In this document: positions 4,078-21,352 of the stretch, one piece after another
Layout: every line of letters starts with the position of its first letter
Position numbering within the stretch: the stretch's first letter is position 1
NCBI GenBank assembly: GCA_943787485.1
Contig: CALSMP010000004.1
Location: forward strand, 248,001-312,000
From: an uncultured Luminiphilus sp.
GTDB taxonomy: Bacteria; Pseudomonadota; Gammaproteobacteria; Pseudomonadales; Halieaceae
Length of the DNA: 64,000 nt
Direction of reading: 5' to 3'
Notes under the pieces: generated by a model
The model's input: only the letters and a program-made list of their open reading frames with translations
The model's database searches: none
What the model was told of the DNA's origin: nothing
Program-made: the position numbers and the translations under genes

Positions 4078-5115
4078 ATGAAAACCCTGACAATTCTTAA
4101 GCCCGATGACTGGCACATCCATTTGCGCGACGGCAAGGCGCTTCCCAAAACCGTTAATGATGTGGCCGCATGGGCGCAGCGGGCCATCGTGATGCCAAAC
4201 CTTGTGCCACCCATCCTCGACACCAAGGCCGCTTCAGCCTACCGCCAGCGCATTCTCGCGGCACGGCTACCCCAGCATGAGGGTTTTGATCCACTCATGA
4301 CGTTGTATCTGTCAGACAAAACGACCGTTGATCAAATAATCGAGGCCGCCGAGTGCCCCTTTATTCACGGCGTCAAGCTGTATCCTGCCGGGGCTACCAC
4401 CAACTCGGAGGTCGGCGTTCGTGACCTAGCACACCTCTATCCTGTCTTTGAGGCAATGGAAAAGGTCGATCTGCCTCTTTTGATCCACGGCGAGGTCACA
4501 GACAGCGATATCGACATTTTCGATCGAGAAAAAATTTTCATTGATCGCTATTTAAGCCAGATCGTAGAGGACTTCCCGGGGCTACGCGTTGTTTTCGAAC
4601 ACATCACCACCGCCGACGCCGTCAGTTTTGTGGTCGGCGCAAGGGATGGAGTTGCGGCAACCGTGACGGCCCATCATCTGCTTTACAACCGCAATGACCT
4701 GTTAGTGGGCGGGGTGAGACCTCACTACTTCTGCCTGCCTATTCTCAAGCGCAACACCCACCAAGAAGCCCTGCGCACAGCCGTTACGTCAGGCAACTCT
4801 CGATTCTTTCTCGGCACTGATTCAGCACCCCACACCAGAGCCGCCAAAGAGAGCGCCTGTGGTTGTGCGGGCTGCTACACAGCGCATGCGGCAATCGAGC
4901 TTTATGCTGAGGTCTTTGAATCGGAAGGTGCACTGCCCTTGCTAGAGGGCTTTGCCAGTCATTTCGGTCCGGACTTTTACCGACTGCCAAGAAATAGTCA
5001 AACTGTTACGCTCACCCAACAATCTCACACAGTCCCTGAAACCTTCACCATGGGGGATGATACTTTAATCCCCCTAAGAGCCGGCGAGCAGCTGCATTGG
5101 CGATTAAGCCCGTGA
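4078..5115 (+). CDS. pyrC: Dihydroorotase
   Basis: PyrC cyclises carbamoyl-aspartate to dihydroorotate in pyrimidine synthesis. The protein has 345 residues, the size of the E. coli-type (class II) enzyme. Metal-binding DWHIHLRDG lies at residues 11-19, the lysine that is carboxylated in the family is in [11 protein letters not shown], and the catalytic Asp is in [13 protein letters not shown] at 4078 gives the usual N-terminus ([13 protein letters not shown]). The stop overlaps the GTG of the next gene, so pyrC and rnt are probably coupled. It diverges from argG with about 110 bases between the starts. Confidence 0.96.
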
Positions 5116-5762
5116 GTGAAAACATGCCTCGACAGATCAAAGATCGATTCCGAGGCTTTCTTCCAGTGGTTGTAGACATTGAAACCGGCGGCTTTCAAGC
5201 CGCGACCGATGCGCTGCTCGAAATTGCCGCCACCTTCGTCACCGTTGACGCACAAGGGTTATTGGCGCCCGGCGAAACGATTACCTTTAACGTCGAGCCA
5301 TTTGAGGGTGCAAATCTGGAGCCTTCGGCTCTCGAATTTACGGGGATAGATCCAGAAAGCCCGCTTCGCGGGGCTGTGCCCGAGGAAATTGCTCTTGGTG
5401 AGTTGTATGGCCAGGTGCGCAAAGCGGTAAAAGCAACCGGCTGCAATCGCGCCATTCTAGTGGGTCATAACGCCCATTTTGATGCTGGCTTCCTTAACGC
5501 GGCAAATGAACGCTGTGATATCAAGCGAAATCCTTTTCATCCCTTCTCTCATTTCGATACCGCGACGCTTGCCGGCTTTGCCTTCGGACACACGGTGCTC
5601 GCCCAGGCATGCAAAAGGGCCAGACTGGACTTCAGCAGCAGTGAAGCCCACTCGGCAGCCTACGATGCAGCAAAGACCGCTGAACTTTTCTGTCTGATCG
5701 TCAATCGCTGGCAACAGCTCGGGGGCTGGCAGTGGCCGGAGGGGCCTGAGGACCCCGAATAA
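5112..5762 (+). CDS. rnt: Ribonuclease T
   Basis: RNase T is a DEDD 3'-5' exoribonuclease that trims tRNA ends and other stable RNAs. The three exonuclease motifs are visible: [22 protein letters not shown] and [14 protein letters not shown], the last with the catalytic His and Asp. Length is about 216 residues, as expected. GTG at 5112 overlaps the pyrC stop and is the preferred start. TTG 5097 and ATG 5124 are in the same frame. The 3' end overlaps the convergent amidohydrolase gene by 62 bases. Confidence 0.93.
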
Positions 5763-7455
5763 GGCCTCCAGGAGTGGCGCCCTGGAAACACCCATTTTTA
5801 AACGTGACCTCGCCCGATTTAATGGTAAGTCGGTATCCAGTAGCGTCTTGTAGCAACCGCTTTCCTCCAGCCGGTAAATCATGAGCCACCCACGGGGAGT
5901 TTAGTGATAAGGACGTCATATCGATCACGTTTATGTCTGCGAGGTACCCAACTTCAATAACGCCTCGGTCATTCAAGCCGTACATGACTGCGGTGTCTGC
6001 ACACTGGCGTTTGATTGCGTTCCCGAGGGTGATGCGATGACCCTCTCTATCCCGCACCCAATGCTGCAACAAAAAGGTTGGCGCCGCCGCATCGCATATC
6101 GTGCCACAGTGGGCTCCTCCATCTGAAAGCGAGTTGATACAGTCATCAGACTCCAGGATGGATTCTAGAAAATTTAAGTTTCCGTCCGCATAGTTCAATA
6201 GAGGGAAATAAATAAATCCCTCTCCCTCATTGGACATCAAACTGTCGTAGGCAAAAGCAGCGGGGTCCTGGCCCGCTGCTGCCGCTCTTGCTGCAATCGT
6301 ATCTTCAGCAGTTGGCTCATAATTAAAGCCTTCCACCATGGGATATTGCATTTGCCAAGCAACCGTCATGAGCTCACCCAACAAACGGAGATCTGTGTCG
6401 GGAAGCTTGCTTGGCTCAGCCAGTAACCGCGCCTTGAACGCTGGATCTCGCAGCCGCTCAAGCTGTTCTTTCCATGGTAGATCGGCGATAGCCAGCCAGC
6501 TTGGTTTAAAAGAGAAGGGATGAAAAGTTGCTCGCCAACCGAGCACCAGCCCGGTGCCGCGCAGTGAAACTTGGGCTTTAATGTTGGCACCGGCCGCGTT
6601 TTCTTTACGCATGGTTGCAATTTGATCCTCGAAGGAAAGTGCCTTCAAAGGCGACTGCAAGGCGGTGAAGCTAACCGGCAAGCCGGTTTCACGGCTCAAC
6701 TTACCCATCCAGTCAAACTCATTCCACTCGGGCAATAGGTCGCTCGCCAACTCAAAAACCCCATGGCCAGCCCTCCCCATGGCGCGACCAATACCGATGA
6801 GCTCCTCTTCGGTAGCCGTAGTACCCGGCACCAACTCGCCATCGATCGACTTGTGAAGCACGGTGCGTGATGTTGAAAAACCTAGCGCACCCGCCTTCAA
6901 GCCCTCTTCCACAATAGCGGACATGCGGGCGATATCTGTCTCGGTAGGCGCCTCATTTGCTGCACCGCGATCTCCCATAACGTAGGCCCTGACAGCGCCA
7001 TGGGGCACATGAGTCGCCACGTCGACGGAGCGGGGAAGCTCTTCCAGTGCGTCTAGGTAGTCGGGAAAGGTCTCCCAGTTCCAGGGCATACCCTCAGAAA
7101 GTGCCGACCCCGGAATATCCTCAACGCCTTCCATCAAACCAATAAGCCAGTCGTGACGCTCTGGCGCGGCGGGGGCAAATCCAACGCCACAGTTTCCCAT
7201 CACCACCGTCGTGACTCCGTGCCAAGAGGAAGGCGCCATCTCCTGGTCCCATGTGGCTTGGCCATCGTAATGGGTGTGGATATCGACAAACCCTGGCGTC
7301 ACGTGACAACCCGTTGCATCAACTGTCTCTTGCGCTTCTCCAAGGTCATGACCGATCGCAGCTATCTTGTTACCCACAATTGCCACGTCAGCCGCAAACG
7401 GGTCGCCACCTCGGCCATCAACAACCGCGCCCCCTTTTATGAGTATGTCGTACAT
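5701..7455 (-). CDS. D-aminoacylase-like amidohydrolase (amidohydrolase 3 family)
   Basis: This 584-residue cytoplasmic protein belongs to the N-acyl-D-amino-acid deacylase group of zinc amidohydrolases. It begins [17 protein letters not shown], has the metal site [12 protein letters not shown] near residue 60, and a late catalytic Asp region [10 protein letters not shown]. The beta-sandwich closes with [12 protein letters not shown]. Members hydrolyse N-acylated D-amino acids or related amides, and the exact substrate is not predictable. It is the last gene of a minus-strand run behind the LON-domain gene (78-base gap). Its last 20 codons are antisense to the end of rnt. Confidence 0.85.
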
Positions 7456-16263: not shown

Positions 16264-17361
16264 ATGCCAACGAAAAAAACTCAGGCAAAAAAACCGGTAC
16301 AAAAGGCAAAAGCCACCGCGAAAAAGCCAGCTAAGGCATCGCCAAAGAAAAAGCCTGCGGCCAAAAAAATCGCAGCGAAAAAGACGACCACCAAGAAACC
16401 CGTTGTAAAGAAGAAGACGCCTGTGAAAAAAGCAGCATCGAAAAAAGCACCCGCCAAGAAGGCTCCGGCCAAAAAGGCAGCGGCTAAAAAAACACCCGCA
16501 AAAAAAGCTGTCGCCAAGAAAGCACCGGCTAAAAAGGTAGCGGCTAAAAAAACGCCCGCGAAAAAAGCTGTCGCCAAGAAAGCACCGGCCAAAAAGGCAG
16601 CCGCTAAAAAAACGCCCGCAAAAAAAGCTGTTGCCAAGAAAGCACCGGCCAAAAAGGTAGCGGCTAAGAAAACACCCGCAAAAAAAGCTGTCGCCAAGAA
16701 AGCACCGGCCAAAAAGGTAGCGGCTAAGAAAACACCCGCAAAAAAAGCTGTCGCCAAGAAAGCACCGGCCAAAAAGGTAGCGGCTAAAAAAACACCCGCA
16801 AAAAAAGCTGTCGCCAAGAAAGCACCGGCTAAAAAGGTAGCGGCTAAAAAAACACCCGCGAAAAAAGCTGTCGCCAAGAAGGCTCCGGCTGCTCCAAAAC
16901 GTCGAAGAAAGGACGATAAAAAGGTCGCACGAGCCGTCGGGGAGCTACAGCGTTTCGATGACTTCAAACCCTACAAACCCTCCCGTGGCGAGTCCTACAT
17001 GAACGACGAGCAGCTTGAGCATTTCAAGCAATTGCTGTACGTCTGGCGCGCGGAACTCGTGGAAGAAATGACACGGACGGTCTCCCACATGAAGGATGAG
17101 GCGGCCAACTTCCCAGATCCCGCCGATCGGGCGACACAGGAAGAGGAATTTAGCCTCGAGCTCCGCACCCGTGACCGGGAGCGGAAACTCATCAAAAAGA
17201 TCGACGGCACCCTCGAGCGGATCAAAATTGACGATTACGGTTACTGTGACGCCTGCGGCATTGAAATAGGTATTCACCGACTCGAAGCGCGTCCTACCGC
17301 AACACTGTGCATTGACTGCAAGACGTTAGCCGAAATCAAGGAACGTCAAGAACTCGGTTAG
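16264..17361 (+). CDS. dksA: DksA with long lysine-rich histone-H1-like N-terminal tail
   Basis: Residues about 225-365 are a complete DksA: the coiled-coil tip [14 protein letters not shown] with the DxxDxA acidic motif that enters the RNA polymerase secondary channel, then the four-cysteine zinc finger (CDAC and CIDC) and [11 protein letters not shown]. Ahead of it lie about 209 residues of Lys/Ala/Pro repeats ([16 protein letters not shown]), like histone H1 or Pseudomonas AlgP, encoded by 60-bp tandem repeats. E. coli DksA has 151 residues and no tail. The tail probably binds DNA or RNA non-specifically (inference). The RBS-like AGGAAATCGAC precedes the ATG. gluQ follows directly, as in E. 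coli and Pseudomonas. Confidence 0.93.
16441..16889 (+). repeat. 60-bp tandem repeats (about 7.5 copies) inside dksA
   Basis: The sequence repeats with an exact 60-base period, each unit coding 20 residues of the type [20 protein letters not shown]. Copies differ mostly at third positions (gcc/gct, acg/aca, aaa/aag), so the protein repeat is under selection or recently homogenised. Copy number is expected to vary among strains and is also vulnerable to assembly collapse. Confidence 0.95.
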
Positions 17362-17388: not shown

Positions 17389-18243
17389 ATTGAAAACTAC
17401 TATCGGGGACGGTTTGCTCCCTCCCCGACCGGCCCTTTACACATGGGGTCTTTGGTTGCGGCACTCGCCAGCTTTCTTGATGCAAAAGCAAACGAGGGCG
17501 CCTGGCTTGTTCGTATTGACGACATCGATCCCCCTCGTGAAGTGGCGGGGGCCAAAGCGCAAATCCTTGCAACCCTCCATGCCCATGGCATGTCGGGGGA
17601 TGAGGAGCTCATCCTGCAAAGCAGCCATCATGCTGCCTATGAGACAGCGCTTGAAAAGCTCTGGCAGCAGGGTCTTCTCTTCGTTTGTTCATGCACCCGT
17701 GCCACCCTTGGTCCAACAGGGTGCTGCATACGAGATTGCCGCGACCAAGCCCGACCACAGACGGTGGAGGGGAGCTTGCGTATTCATGTTCCCACGGGGA
17801 CTCATATTGAATTTACTGATCTCGTGCTGGGGCCTCAGAATGTGGATCTAGCCTCTCAACTCAGTAATTTTATTGTTCGACGACGTGATGGGCTTTACGC
17901 CTATCAACTTGCCGCAGCGGTCGACGACTTTTCCCCCCACATCACTCACGTTATTAGAGGCGCCGACCTACTAGAATCAACGCCGCGCCAGATGTTCTTG
18001 CGACGGATGTTGGCATTGCCCGACCCTCTCTATGGGCATACACCGGTCTTGACCGACGCACTCGGAACGAAGCTCAGCAAGCAAACTGGCGCGGCGCCCG
18101 TCAACAACCGGTTAGCGCTCGACAACCTCCGGTTCGCGCTCGCTTTTTTAGGCCAGCCGAAGCCCGATAGCCACGTTAGCAATGTGCCCGACCTGCTGAG
18201 ATCGGCTGTCGCCAACTGGCGGCGCGCGTGCCTGCCCAAGTAA
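17389..18243 (+). CDS. gluQ: Glutamyl-Q tRNA(Asp) synthetase
   Basis: GluQ charges glutamate onto queuosine at the wobble base of tRNA-Asp. The HIGH-like motif FAPSPTGPLHMGSL is at the N-terminus, the class I fold continues with VRIDDIDPPRE, and the KMSKS-like loop is TKLSKQTG. CSCTR and CCIRDC supply cysteines of the zinc site. There is no tRNA-binding domain, as usual. The protein clearly starts before the ATG at 17443 (YYRGRFAPSPTGP precedes it). The only start-like codon in frame there is ATT at 17389, since no ATG, GTG or TTG occurs between it and the dksA stop. Either ATT is used or a start base is miscalled. Confidence 0.88.
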   Translation: MENYYRGRFAPSPTGPLHMGSLVAALASFLDAKANEGAWLVRIDDIDPPREVAGAKAQILATLHAHGMSGDEELILQSSHHAAYETALEKLWQQGLLFVCSCTRATLGPTGCCIRDCRDQARPQTVEGSLRIHVPTGTHIEFTDLVLGPQNVDLASQLSNFIVRRRDGLYAYQLAAAVDDFSPHITHVIRGADLLESTPRQMFLRRMLALPDPLYGHTPVLTDALGTKLSKQTGAAPVNNRLALDNLRFALAFLGQPKPDSHVSNVPDLLRSAVANWRRACLPK

Positions 18244-18258
18244 CAATATTGCCGTTTT

Positions 18259-18304
18259 TGTTACTGTTACTTTTAAGTTAACGTGCTAGTGTAGAAAAGT
18301 AACA
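18259..18304 (+). promoter_or_regulatory. TGTTAC/GTAACA half-sites upstream of cbrB
   Basis: TGTTAC occurs twice in tandem (18259-18264 and 18265-18270) and GTAACA at 18299-18304, in the 94-base gap between gluQ and cbrB. The same half-sites occur after cbrB in front of the sRNA promoter. As I recall, published CbrB sites in Pseudomonas are inverted TGTTAC/GTAACA pairs. The spacing here (28 bases) is wider than the roughly 14 I remember. Autoregulation is the inference. Confidence 0.5.
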
Positions 18305-18337
18305 AAATGACGCGAACATCCTCAGGGAAAAGCGAGC

Positions 18338-19738
18338 ATGCCCCACATTCTTCTTGTCGATGATGAGCCCTCCCAACGACAGAGCTTTCGGAAAACGCTG
18401 GAAAGCCATGATTTCAAGGTCGCAGAAGCCACCAGTGTCCTAGAAGCAGAGGGTAAATTCTCTCTGTCCGACTTCGATTTAATTGTTACCGAGCTTAGGT
18501 TACCCGGGGTTGCGGGCAGTGACCTGATCAAGCTAGCAGAACCGGTCCCCGTCATCGTGATGACAAATTACGCCAGTCTGCGCTCGGCGATCGACTCGAT
18601 GAAGCTCGGGGCCGTTGATTATTTAGCCAAGCCCTGCTCTGCCGAAGATTTGCTGTCGGTGGTTCGGGCTGCCATCGCCGACTTCCCACGGATTGACAGT
18701 AAGGAATCGGAAAAAGTCGCAGGGGCGCAATCAATTTTTGAGGGGAATTGTGAGGCGCTTTTGCAACTGCAACGAAAGATTACCAAGGTTGCGGCCAGCG
18801 AGATGACCGTTCTCATTAACGGTGAGACAGGCACCGGCAAAGAGATAGCGGCCAAACAAGTTCACAGCTTAAGCGCTAGGCGGGATAAACCAATGGTCGC
18901 CGTAAACTGCGCAGCGATTCCCGACACCCTGATCGAGTCAGAACTCTTCGGTTATGAGAAAGGGGCTTTTACCGGCGCGACCACCAGCCGCATCGGCCTG
19001 ATCGAAGCCGCTCACGGTGGCACGCTGTTTCTGGACGAAATTGGCGAGCTACCGCTGGCCGCCCAGGCACGTCTGCTGCGCTTTATTCAGGAAGGAGAGA
19101 TTCGGCGTATCGGTTCAGTAGCAACAAGACGGGTCAATGTTAGGTTAATCTGCGCCACCCACCGGGACTTGGCGACCCTAGCAAAGGACCAGGAGTTCCG
19201 CCAGGACCTGTACTATCGAATTAACGTCCTGCAGCTTGATATACCCCCCCTCCGAGACCGCGGGGAAGATATTCGCAGCATGATTCTGTGGTTTCTCGAG
19301 GCTGCAAACCGGCGCCTCCCCGGGCGAGAAAAGTCAATAAGTGAGCACACACTTACCGCAATGACCCGATATCGTTGGCCCGGTAACGTCAGGGAACTTG
19401 AGCATGCGATCGAGCGGGCCGTCATTATGGCCGAAGGATCTAACATAGAGACCGCGGATTTGGGTCTGGCCAGCGCGTCGACCCATGGGCAACGCGCGGC
19501 AGAACCTGCGCCCCAGGCCAATTCGCGAGTCCAAGCAATCAGCGCATCCACCGATGCTGAAGCCGAGCCCGAGCTGTCCCTAGAGGATTACTTTCAGCGC
19601 TTCGTCCTGGAGCACCAGGGCGCCATGAATGAGACAGAATTAGCGCAAAAGCTGGGTATTAGTCGAAAATGCCTATGGGAAAGACGCCAACGATTCAATC
19701 TGCCACGCCGCAAGCCTAGTCGACGCACAAGCGCCTGA
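18338..19738 (+). CDS. cbrB: CbrB-type sigma-54-dependent response regulator with Glu at the phosphoacceptor site
   Basis: The 466-residue protein has a receiver domain (1-120), a sigma-54 AAA+ domain (about 135-370) and a Fis-type helix-turn-helix (about 430-460, TELAQKLGISRKCLWERRQR). Walker A is GETGTGKE (162-169), the sigma-54 loop GAFTGA (209-214) and Walker B TLFLDEIGE. The receiver keeps the acidic pair D8-D9, T76 and K98, but the phosphorylated Asp is Glu 52 (VTELRLPG, codon 18491-18493). The segment NYASLRSAIDSMKLGAVDY is CbrB-like. Gene order gluQ-cbrB-(sRNA)-pcnB matches Pseudomonas except that cbrA is absent. CbrB activates crcZ and carbon/nitrogen catabolic genes there. Constitutive activity is inferred, not shown. 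Confidence 0.85.
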   Translation: MPHILLVDDEPSQRQSFRKTLESHDFKVAEATSVLEAEGKFSLSDFDLIVTELRLPGVAGSDLIKLAEPVPVIVMTNYASLRSAIDSMKLGAVDYLAKPCSAEDLLSVVRAAIADFPRIDSKESEKVAGAQSIFEGNCEALLQLQRKITKVAASEMTVLINGETGTGKEIAAKQVHSLSARRDKPMVAVNCAAIPDTLIESELFGYEKGAFTGATTSRIGLIEAAHGGTLFLDEIGELPLAAQARLLRFIQEGEIRRIGSVATRRVNVRLICATHRDLATLAKDQEFRQDLYYRINVLQLDIPPLRDRGEDIRSMILWFLEAANRRLPGREKSISEHTLTAMTRYRWPGNVRELEHAIERAVIMAEGSNIETADLGLASASTHGQRAAEPAPQANSRVQAISASTDAEAEPELSLEDYFQRFVLEHQGAMNETELAQKLGISRKCLWERRQRFNLPRRKPSRRTSA

Positions 19739-19762
19739 ACCTCTGGGTTTGCGTAGAAAAAC

Positions 19763-19789
19763 GTAACAGTGGAGTGTTAAAAAGTAACA
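19763..19789 (+). promoter_or_regulatory. Candidate CbrB upstream activating sites for the sRNA
   Basis: GTAACA (19763-19768), TGTTAA (19775-19780) and GTAACA (19784-19789) sit about 80-100 bases before the sigma-54 promoter, a usual enhancer distance. The flank GTAGAAAA before the first site is shared with the cbrB upstream region (18291-18298). Confidence 0.55.
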
Positions 19790-19862
19790 TAACCTGGGGC
19801 GAACCAAGCCAAACAAAGGCTGGTCAGCCCTTAACCTACTGTTTTAAATAGAAAACTTATTG

Positions 19863-19879
19863 TTGGCACGTGACCTGCA
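19863..19879 (+). promoter_or_regulatory. Sigma-54 (-24/-12) promoter
   Basis: TTGGCACGTGACCTGCA matches the RpoN consensus TTGGCACG-N4-TTGCW at all but one position, with invariant GG (19865-19866) and GC (19877-19878) separated by exactly ten bases. Transcription would start near 19890. It lies just downstream of a gene for a sigma-54 activator. Confidence 0.8.
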
Positions 19880-19889
19880 AATCATCGGG

Positions 19890-19979
19890 TAGAGCCGAAA
19901 TAACAATAAATGGCCCAAGAACAATAAAAAACGCAAACGGACCTGGATGGGGAAGGAGACTTCCCCATGTTTGTTTTTA
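19890..19979 (+). ncRNA. crcZ: Candidate CrcZ-like small RNA (about 90 nt)
   Basis: A predicted transcript runs from the sigma-54 promoter to a strong terminator, with no coding frame of note. It contains two A-rich AAN repeats, AATAACAATAAA (19899-19910) and AAGAACAATAAAAAAC (19917-19932). These fit the CA motif that Hfq and Crc bind in Pseudomonas CrcZ, the RNA that lifts catabolite repression by sequestering them. The locus lies between cbrB and pcnB, the same place as crcZ. P. aeruginosa CrcZ is about 400 nt with more motifs, so this would be a miniature form. Boundaries are predictions and homology is positional and motif-based, not by alignment. Confidence 0.65.
19947..19978 (+). terminator. 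Rho-independent terminator of the sRNA
   Basis: A perfect 9-bp stem, ATGGGGAAG (19947-19955) and CTTCCCCAT (19960-19968), closes a GAGA tetraloop and is followed by a T-rich run with a single G (19970-19978). It would also isolate pcnB from upstream transcription. Confidence 0.88.
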
Positions 19980-20071
19980 GTTCCTCCTTTTGACTAATCC
20001 CATCCTAAAGCACACGTTAACCGCCGGAGATAGTACACTCCGCGACTACCACTTTTTCTTGAGGGCACCCC

Positions 20072-21352
20072 TTGCAAGCCATCCCCAAGGCGGAACATGG
20101 CATTGACCCGGCGTTGGTTAGCCCTGCCGCAGTCCGGATTGTCCACAAGCTTTGCGAGGCAGGCTTCGAGGCCTATATTGTCGGCGGTGCCGTCAGAGAT
20201 CTGCTCCTCGGTGCCCACCCCAAAGACTTCGACGTCGCGACCAATGCAACGCCCGAACAGGTCAAAGGCCTGTTCCGCAGCGCAAGGATCATCGGCCGTC
20301 GCTTTCAGATAGTTCACGTGCGTGATGGCCGCGAGGTAATAGAGGTCACCACCTACCGCGGGCATCACGGTAGCGAGGGAGCGCAACCCGCCACGAGCAA
20401 GCAGTCTGATAAGGGGCTGCTTCTTAGAGACAATGTCTACGGCACCCTCGAGGAGGATGCGGCGAGACGAGACCTCACAATTAACGCCATGTATTACGAC
20501 CCCGAGCGAGAGGTCGTGTTGGATCAGCTCGCGGGAACCGAGGATTTACAGGCCCGATTGGTGCGCGTTATTGGAGATCCATGGGCTCGATATCGCGAGG
20601 ATCCTGTCCGCATGCTGCGGGTTGCGCGCTTCGCCGCAAAACTTCAGTTCGACCTTGAGCCCACGACAGAAGAGGCCATCGCTGACTGCGCCCCGCTTTT
20701 AAGAGAAATCCCTCCTGCTCGCCTGTTCGATGAGTTTTTGAAGCTGTTTATGGCGGGCTTCGGTAAACCTACCTTCCTTCTACTCCTGCAGCACGACCTG
20801 CTGTCCTGCCTCTGCCCCGCCGCTACCGAATCGATCAACGCTCAGACCAGCCACAGACACCTCGTCTCGATGGCCATGGGCAACACTGATCAACGGGTAA
20901 AGGACGGGAGACCCGTCACCCCCGCTTTTCTGCTAGCGGCACTGCTCTGGCCGGCAGTGACCACACGGTCAGGTCAACTTTTGCAGGAGGGCATGCCCCC
21001 CGCTCAGGCTATCAACAGTGCTGGACAGCAGCTTACGGCCGAAACCTGCCAACACATGGCAATACCTAAGCGCTTTTCAATCCCCATGCGCGAAATCTGG
21101 GAGCTCCAGCCCAAATTGGAGCGCCAGCAAAAGCGGCGGGTGCCGGACATCCTGTCGGGTCGTCGCTTTCGAGCTGCCTATGACCTTCTTTTACTGCGAG
21201 ATCAGGCCGGGCCAGACCTCGAGCAGGCGGTGCAGTTCTGGACTGAGCAACAGCGACTTAATCCCGAACTCGTCGGTAGCGCACCGAGGACCGACGATGA
21301 GCGCCCAGCCTCTAAGCGCCGGCGGCCGCGTCGACGCAAGCCTGCACCGTGA
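20072..21352 (+). CDS. pcnB: Poly(A) polymerase I
   Basis: PcnB adds 3' poly(A) tails that promote RNA decay. The 426-residue protein has the nucleotidyltransferase signature VGGAVRDLLLGAHPKDFDVATN, the RRF region GRRFQIVHV, the DxD-like RRDLTINAMYYDP, and a basic C-terminus KRRRPRRRKP that fits RNA binding. TTG at 20072 follows GAGGG at good spacing, and no ATG gives the full N-terminus. The stop overlaps the GTG of folK (GTGA). Confidence 0.93.
   Translation: MQAIPKAEHGIDPALVSPAAVRIVHKLCEAGFEAYIVGGAVRDLLLGAHPKDFDVATNATPEQVKGLFRSARIIGRRFQIVHVRDGREVIEVTTYRGHHGSEGAQPATSKQSDKGLLLRDNVYGTLEEDAARRDLTINAMYYDPEREVVLDQLAGTEDLQARLVRVIGDPWARYREDPVRMLRVARFAAKLQFDLEPTTEEAIADCAPLLREIPPARLFDEFLKLFMAGFGKPTFLLLLQHDLLSCLCPAATESINAQTSHRHLVSMAMGNTDQRVKDGRPVTPAFLLAALLWPAVTTRSGQLLQEGMPPAQAINSAGQQLTAETCQHMAIPKRFSIPMREIWELQPKLERQQKRRVPDILSGRRFRAAYDLLLLRDQAGPDLEQAVQFWTEQQRLNPELVGSAPRTDDERPASKRRRPRRRKPAP

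Follow-up and report, generated by a model that had tools for sequence, protein, structure and literature searches.

Can a catabolite-control module of the CbrB-CrcZ type dispense with its sensor kinase and keep its small-RNA output? This question is raised by a 64,000-nucleotide (nt) stretch of DNA from an uncultured Luminiphilus sp. (family Halieaceae; assembly GCA_943787485.1, contig CALSMP010000004.1, positions 248,001 to 312,000), hereafter the window, in which the gene for the sigma-54-dependent activator CbrB has no adjoining kinase partner gene. All on one strand (+), gluQ ends at 18243, cbrB (466 amino acids) follows after 94 nt at 18338-19738, and a 333-nt spacer leads to pcnB at 20072; the usual order among relatives is gluQ-cbrA-cbrB-RNA-pcnB. 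A reading of this locus made without database searches (the sequence-only reading) had named gluQ, a CbrB-type activator, a sigma-54-driven A-rich RNA and pcnB in this order and had called the cbrA position empty; both claims were borne out, with its coordinates right within a few bases. At this locus cbrA is absent, the receiver chemistry is lost and the output parts persist. We think it fairly probable that this is a CbrB-CrcZ-type catabolite-control module minus its input half, in which CbrB would work without phosphorylation and drive an A-rich RNA that titrates Hfq (with Crc).

Absence of cbrA from the genus

The window protein matches Pfam Response_reg (77 bits) and Sigma54_activat (235 bits) and lies in the gluQ...cbrB...pcnB neighborhood, and orthologues occur across the order. 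A CbrB protein search at an expectation value (E) of 1e-110 matched 126 of 140 family genomes, among them 49 of the 57 genus genomes with one match each, and an order-level search at 1e-60 matched 114/115 genomes, where the weaker matches are probably other NtrC-type regulators. We analyzed 119 loci, one per genome, comprising all 49 from the genus, 22 from the family and 48 from the rest of the order; ten of these (8 order, 2 family) were chosen because no cbrA was seen, and the sample is therefore non-random. The query for the kinase was a family CbrA, which aligns over residues 16-612 with the solved histidine-kinase chain 10ed (520.7 bits), which we take to be the CbrA transceptor. At a threshold of 1e-70 it matched 87/115 genomes across the order and 75/140 in the family, these being 0/57 in the genus and 75/83 among the others. 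In the window's own genome the CbrA query yielded kinase-half matches only, the best at 1.3e-32. The kinase whose place at this locus the sequence-only reading had called empty is also missing, at this threshold, from the genus, and gluQ-cbrB loci without cbrA, which it had proposed seeking in relatives, are the rule there: gluQ adjoins cbrB in 48/49 genus loci, and in the remaining one (L092) the contig ends. That cbrA has moved elsewhere or was missed through incomplete genomes is scarcely credible. The window's genome is 89.7% complete, which would allow a gene to be missed, but the two genes are neighbors in every locus where both are in view, and the 57 genomes without a match include some that are 98-100% complete, so that the idea is contradicted at the threshold used.

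Many genus members have small genomes. We did not accept that cbrB is lost in 8/57 genus genomes: three (G215, G188 and G216) carry the RNA, with the end of CbrB present at a contig edge in G215, and the other five are 54-83% complete. Some relatives outside the genus depart from the usual arrangement in other ways. Locus L149 (genome G126) has, at 4792-5919 in the orientation of cbrB, a 375-residue PAS-kinase protein between gluQ and cbrB that amounts to CbrA without its transporter half; its CbrB receiver is intact, similar CbrA match ranges were seen in G125, G127 and G128, and such a truncated CbrA may be a stage on the way from full CbrA to its absence. Four small-genome relatives (G120-G122 of g86 and G129 of g90) match neither cbrA nor, at 1e-110, CbrB; the RNA was not found in three of them and matched marginally in G121, all four genomes are 60-88% complete, and loss of the whole module in these lineages is possible. 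Many of the loci L142-L161 carry, in the gluQ-cbrA spacer, a small open reading frame heading towards cbrA that opens like ATGTAYATYAAYCG (judged by eye) and resembles cbrX reported in Pseudomonas.

Receiver decay where the kinase is absent

The receiver domain of the window CbrB (amino acids 1-113; 18338-18676, +) retains D8, D9, T76 and K98, with Cys at the second position after the lysine (K+2). Codon 52 (18491-18493, +) is GAG and encodes Glu where the phosphoacceptor Asp would be expected, as the sequence-only reading had it; because the same Glu is found in 13/13 genus loci of the window's subgroup, a sequencing error is unlikely. This CbrB lacks both a phosphorylatable Asp52 and a partner CbrA. 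In the rest of the protein, the AAA+ domain (18740-19453, +) has the Walker A motif GETGTGKE, the sigma-54-contacting GAFTGA loop and Walker B, and a DNA-binding helix-turn-helix is present at 19589-19717 (+).

We scored a receiver as intact if it had acidic residues at 8 and 9, Asp52, Thr or Ser at 76, and Lys98. All five were intact in 55/55 loci with cbrA (L149 among them), and at least one was missing in 59/60 loci without cbrA; the cbrA state of four further loci was undetermined, and two of those receivers are intact. A Fisher test on these counts takes related loci to be independent, and we place no weight on it. The K+2 residue follows the same division, being Phe or Tyr in 55/55 cbrA-bearing loci and changed in 57/60 kinase-less ones (to Ala, Ile, Leu or Val in 39, and to Cys, Thr or Met in 18, including the Cys of the window's subgroup). 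At this position Phe is reported to favor the inactive state, and Ala, Ile, Leu and Val to be activating (PMC12632262). A quick tree of all 119 rows, on which cbrA state had to change 6 times and receiver state 5 times, offered no more than 2 supported independent pairs. We rebuilt it as a careful tree of 79 rows based on the ATPase and DNA-binding domains only, keeping 13 of the 49 genus loci and omitting L208, L209, L139 and L103 for long branches or unclear context. On the 79-row tree cbrA state has to change 5 times and receiver state 4 times. A count of changes cannot by itself separate loss from gain; we infer losses because of the spread of cbrA-bearing loci. Among the omitted loci, L208 (G039, family f40), left out for its long branch, is kinase-less and has a broken receiver too. 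Its CbrB has no GAFTGA loop and may no longer work with sigma-54, and it ends only 63 nt ahead of the pcnB match, so there is little room for an RNA.

The genus itself divides into three clades within one supported genus clade of the 119-row tree, and each has a receiver of its own kind. In subgroup A (13 loci, including the window) D8, D9, E52, T76 and K98 are all invariant; in subgroup B (17 loci) D8, D9, D52 and K98 are retained and T76 is Ala; and in subgroup C (19 loci) the residues are Gly52 and Arg98, with further changes. Identity to cbrA-bearing family members falls from 53% in A to 31% in B and 18% in C for the receiver, and is 64%, 65% and 62% for the AAA+ domain and a mean of 84%, 80% and 85% for the helix-turn-helix; cbrA-bearing family members are 83%, 81% and 92% identical among themselves in the three domains. 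Tested on one protein each, the Pfam receiver model gave 77 bits in A (the window), 32 bits in B (cut-off 30.2) and nothing at 0.01 in C. Profile comparison nevertheless links the C receiver to intact CbrB receivers (E 9e-8, probability 94%), and the predicted structure of this receiver has the alternating strands and helices of a receiver (predicted local distance difference test score, pLDDT, 89.5).

Pairwise ratios of nonsynonymous to synonymous change (dN/dS) in the receiver were 0.009 and 0.026 in A (two of five pairs with measurable dS), 0.026-0.155 in B (three pairs), 0.126-0.387 in C (six pairs) and 0.004-0.094 in the cbrA-bearing family members (five pairs); saturation affected four more pairs of the genus, three in A and one in B. 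By these values the A receiver is held tightly, and the C receiver loosely but not neutrally. Such constraint could mean that the pseudo-receiver has taken on a new sensing role and answers to a ligand or partner protein instead of a phosphate, with the Glu52 pocket of subgroup A part of the switch. A receivers are as alike among themselves (77%) as their AAA+ domains (75%), their five key residues do not vary and dN/dS is low in the two measurable pairs, and a domain kept this tightly does something; even in C the predicted fold persists, and the 14 of 19 receivers that were aligned all agree in 8 of 125 columns, one of them the start Met. We nonetheless consider a new sensor unlikely, as the pocket varies between lineages and shows no common ligand site, and a structural role in forming dimers or oligomers would account for the constraint equally well.

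Promoter, small RNA and the Hfq/Crc partners

The window contains five matches to the sigma-54 pattern, and only that at 19864-19879 (TGGCACGTGACCTGCA, GG-N10-GC, +), which lies 3′ of cbrB, has CbrB-box cores within 160 nt upstream. These form an upstream activating site at 19763-19789 (+), with GTAACA at 19763 and 19784 at a spacing of 21, and the promoter is 80 nt from the second box; across the genus the spacing is 21 in 27/49 loci and the distance to the promoter 79-81 in 36/49. Beyond the promoter a CrcZ-like small RNA is predicted at 19890-19978 (+), about 89 nt long with an inferred start near 19890, on the basis of its conservation, its fold (z = -3.0 against 200 shuffles) and a sub-threshold match to Rfam CrcZ. 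Two A-rich stretches at 19899-19927 (+) hold four overlapping AANAAYAA motifs, where 0.13 would be expected (300 dinucleotide shuffles), and the genus RNAs together hold 120 against 5.8 expected, with 1-4 in each; the A-rich catabolite activity (CA) motif is defined as AAnAAnAA in PMC5429807. The RNA closes with a terminator hairpin at 19949-19966 (+), GGGGAAG-GAGA-CTTCCCC, after which comes a run rich in T. Promoter, predicted RNA and terminator are present in 49/49 genus cbrB loci. The RNA of about 90 nt that the sequence-only reading had proposed stands as a prediction, and its mean column identity is 86% over the 38 genus loci aligned. A heptamer ahead of the hairpin, GACCTGG (window 19940-19946), is invariant in these 38 and recurs in RNAs of the family and some of the order.

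The RNA does not reach the gathering score of Rfam RF01675 (CrcZ), with 20.7 bits against 95 over an overlap at 19755-20003; RF01675 was also missed by L133, a cbrA-bearing locus of another family, at 66.9 bits. None of the 10 predicted pairs changed on both sides; conservation of the sequence is too high for covariation to show. With a covariance model of the 38 genus RNAs we found one copy in 52/57 genus genomes, a result given by construction where a genome's own RNA went into the model, and a match in 74/83 other family genomes. Judged from the pattern of hairpins, two RNA units are present in 12 of 20 family loci and one in the other 8, and 19 of these 20 have cbrA. The unit of about 90-110 nt, single or tandem, therefore predates kinase loss, and we rejected the miniature CrcZ as a mark of that loss, which is how the sequence-only reading had understood it.

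It could be supposed that CbrB and its RNA are relics heading for loss in shrinking genomes. C receivers do evolve faster than those of cbrA-bearing relatives (0.13-0.39 over six pairs against 0.004-0.094 over five), and the small relatives of g86 and g90 lack both the cbrB and the cbrA match. We hold such decay to be very improbable, since all 49 genus loci retain the ATPase and the DNA-binding domain together with boxes, promoter and RNA, the RNA model finds its single copy in 52/57 genus genomes, and dN/dS of the AAA+ domain is 0.02-0.11 in measurable genus pairs.

The sequence-only reading had proposed looking for hfq and crc. Hfq and RpoN are both encoded in the window's own genome, as is a Crc-like protein whose gene lies between pyrE and rph (neighbors judged by eye), and in the genus as a whole Hfq is found in 53/57 genomes and RpoN in 50/57. 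The nearest solved relatives of the Crc-like protein are 4jg3 (207.5 bits) and 4f1r (207.0 bits), both Crc; the margin of this assignment is small because the next chain, 2myi, named exodeoxyribonuclease III, scores 197.6 bits.

A working model, where control may lie, and known systems

Taken together, these results suggest the following model. From an ancestor with the arrangement gluQ-cbrA-cbrB-RNA-pcnB, the genus would have lost cbrA, and the CbrB receiver would have ceased to be a phosphorylation switch. CbrB, with its ATPase and DNA-binding domains kept, would bind the GTAACA/TGTTAC boxes and drive the RNA of about 90 nt from the sigma-54 promoter, and the RNA would titrate Hfq (with Crc) off A-rich target mRNAs, provided that it binds Hfq/Crc. 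Output would then be set by the amount of CbrB, which has boxes at its own promoter, and by the levels of RpoN and Hfq/Crc. The model supposes that unphosphorylated CbrB is active, which we consider most likely: unphosphorylated CbrB of P. putida is reported to be 40% active in vitro (PMC8871633), and this report helps the argument together with the loss of the K+2 Phe in 57/60 kinase-less loci. The phosphorylation-free activation put forward in the sequence-only reading fits a receiver decay that accompanies kinase loss. The Glu need not be its source; subgroups B and C do without Glu52, and the residue at the Asp position has been disproved as the source of activity in some pseudo-receivers (PMC12632262).

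Control may perhaps lie at the level of CbrB. Ahead of cbrB the window has boxes at 18259-18304 (+; TGTTAC at 18259 and 18265, GTAACA at 18299) and an additional GTAACA at 18240. The gluQ-cbrB spacers of 48 genus loci hold 76 boxes, against 3.0 expected from shuffles, and all 48 have them. In cbrA-bearing loci the gluQ-cbrA spacer is not enriched (2 against 1.5 expected in 18 family loci, 4 against 4.0 in 30 order loci), whereas the cbrA 3′ end with the following spacer is (15 against 2.2 in 19 family loci, 39 against 5.9 in 35 order loci); boxes before cbrB are therefore not new in the genus, and many of those in the family sit at -10 of cbrB, where common descent may account for them better than function does. 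What differs is position: a TGTTAC starts 64-80 nt ahead of cbrB in 47/49 genus loci, while a box within 160 nt of cbrB occurs in 29/55 cbrA-bearing loci at scattered positions. This constancy suggests autoregulation of cbrB by its product, whether as activation or as repression. The sequence-only reading's placing of control at the CbrB level is thus favored circumstantially by the boxes of the genus loci, and is weakened by the same enrichment where cbrA is present.

Several observations weigh against the model. The boxes before cbrB, as just described, are not peculiar to the kinase-less genus. Among 17 good-quality genus genomes, RpoN was not found in two and Hfq was not found in one. In P. 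putida three CbrB targets are reported to be strictly CbrA-dependent, save for basal activity on glucose (PMC6591292). The independent pairs in the 79-row tree are few (4 agree, 0 are opposite and 1 shows no difference; sign test p = 0.125), and with fewer than six of them p = 0.05 is out of reach. Subgroup B retains Asp52 and Lys98, so that phosphorylation by another kinase is conceivable there, and L138 (G078, family f41), the sole exception among the kinase-less loci, has a fully intact receiver, perhaps because a different kinase serves it or because cbrA was lost only recently.

These last receivers also speak for an alternative in which another histidine kinase took over CbrB and the altered residues still permit phosphorylation-like control. 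Candidate kinases exist, as the window's genome has 12 matches to the CbrA kinase half at 1e-5, one of them a PAS kinase about 50 kb away (L189) with no response regulator gene within the 5 kb examined. Glu, however, is not normally a phosphate acceptor, subgroup C has Gly52 and Arg98, and every cbrA-bearing receiver in this sample is intact, so the chemistry was lost only where the kinase was gone; we judge a takeover quite improbable.

The system most like this module is CbrA-CbrB-CrcZ with Hfq/Crc of Pseudomonas and Azotobacter, with which it shares the cbrB-RNA order, CbrB boxes, sigma-54 promoter and A-rich RNA, as well as hfq and a crc-like gene flanked by pyrE and rph, with gluQ and pcnB as the usual outer neighbors in the loci fetched. 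It differs in that there is no cbrA, the receiver is unable to use Asp phosphorylation and the RNA is about 90 nt with 1-4 AANAAYAA motifs, where the Rfam CrcZ model has 398 nt. In the LuxO-Qrr system of vibrios an NtrC-type sigma-54 activator likewise drives small RNAs. A laboratory allele, LuxO D47E, replaces Asp with Glu and is reported to be constitutively active (PMC2680268). Subgroup A CbrB shares with it the Glu at the Asp position of a sigma-54 activator of a small RNA; in this subgroup, however, Glu occurs naturally and is fixed, no kinase gene is left, and the motifs of the RNA mark it as one of the Hfq-titrating kind. Bacterial pseudo-receivers (ChxR, HP1043, FleQ and others) are described as mostly orphans with frequent D-to-E, T-to-A and K-to-R changes (PMC12632262), whereas in the present case we know which kinase was the ancestral partner, and close relatives let the change be traced from intact to Pfam-unrecognized.

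A literature search, mostly of open-access papers by title and the start of the abstract, found no description of a kinase-less CbrB-CrcZ variant. We regard the module as a real, ordered variant for which we found no earlier description, with a predicted function. A bolder proposal, which we advance tentatively and with slightly more doubt than belief, is that the kinase was lost four or more times, with receiver decay to match, that orphan CbrB is now a dosage- or ligand-controlled activator of a small RNA, and that one genus displays three stages in the birth of a pseudo-receiver, beginning with a natural "locked-on" Glu and ending with a receiver recognizable only by profile comparison and structure. 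A 2025 review calls the switching of bacterial pseudo-receivers a mystery (PMC12632262), and here a lost kinase, intact relatives and graded states come together with a small RNA as a simple readout. A switch thought to set the order in which foods are eaten would seemingly operate across a genus without its sensor kinase and without its regulator's phosphate chemistry. CbrAB was called unique to Pseudomonadaceae in a 2022 review (PMC8871633), and cbrAB transcripts have been reported in Atlantic sea water (PMC5073097); the CbrA matches at 1e-70 in 87 of the 115 order genomes suggest that cbrA-cbrB with a CrcZ-like RNA reaches well beyond Pseudomonadaceae.

The module is bordered downstream by pcnB, encoding poly(A) polymerase (20072-21352, +; TIGR01942, 485 bits), and upstream by gluQ, encoding tRNA glutamyl-Q synthetase (17443-18243, +; NCBIfam NF004314, 279.8 bits against a cut-off of 256). 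The NF004314 profile aligned to gluQ only from position 21 onward, and the true start is probably upstream of the first ATG at 17443. Between 17362 and 17443 there is no in-frame ATG, GTG or TTG, yet the conserved GluQ N-terminus YRGRFAPSPTGPLHMG begins there, upstream of 17443 (by eye). Further upstream, a DksA-like protein (window 16264-17361) carries a long, repeated, Lys/Ala-rich N-terminal extension.

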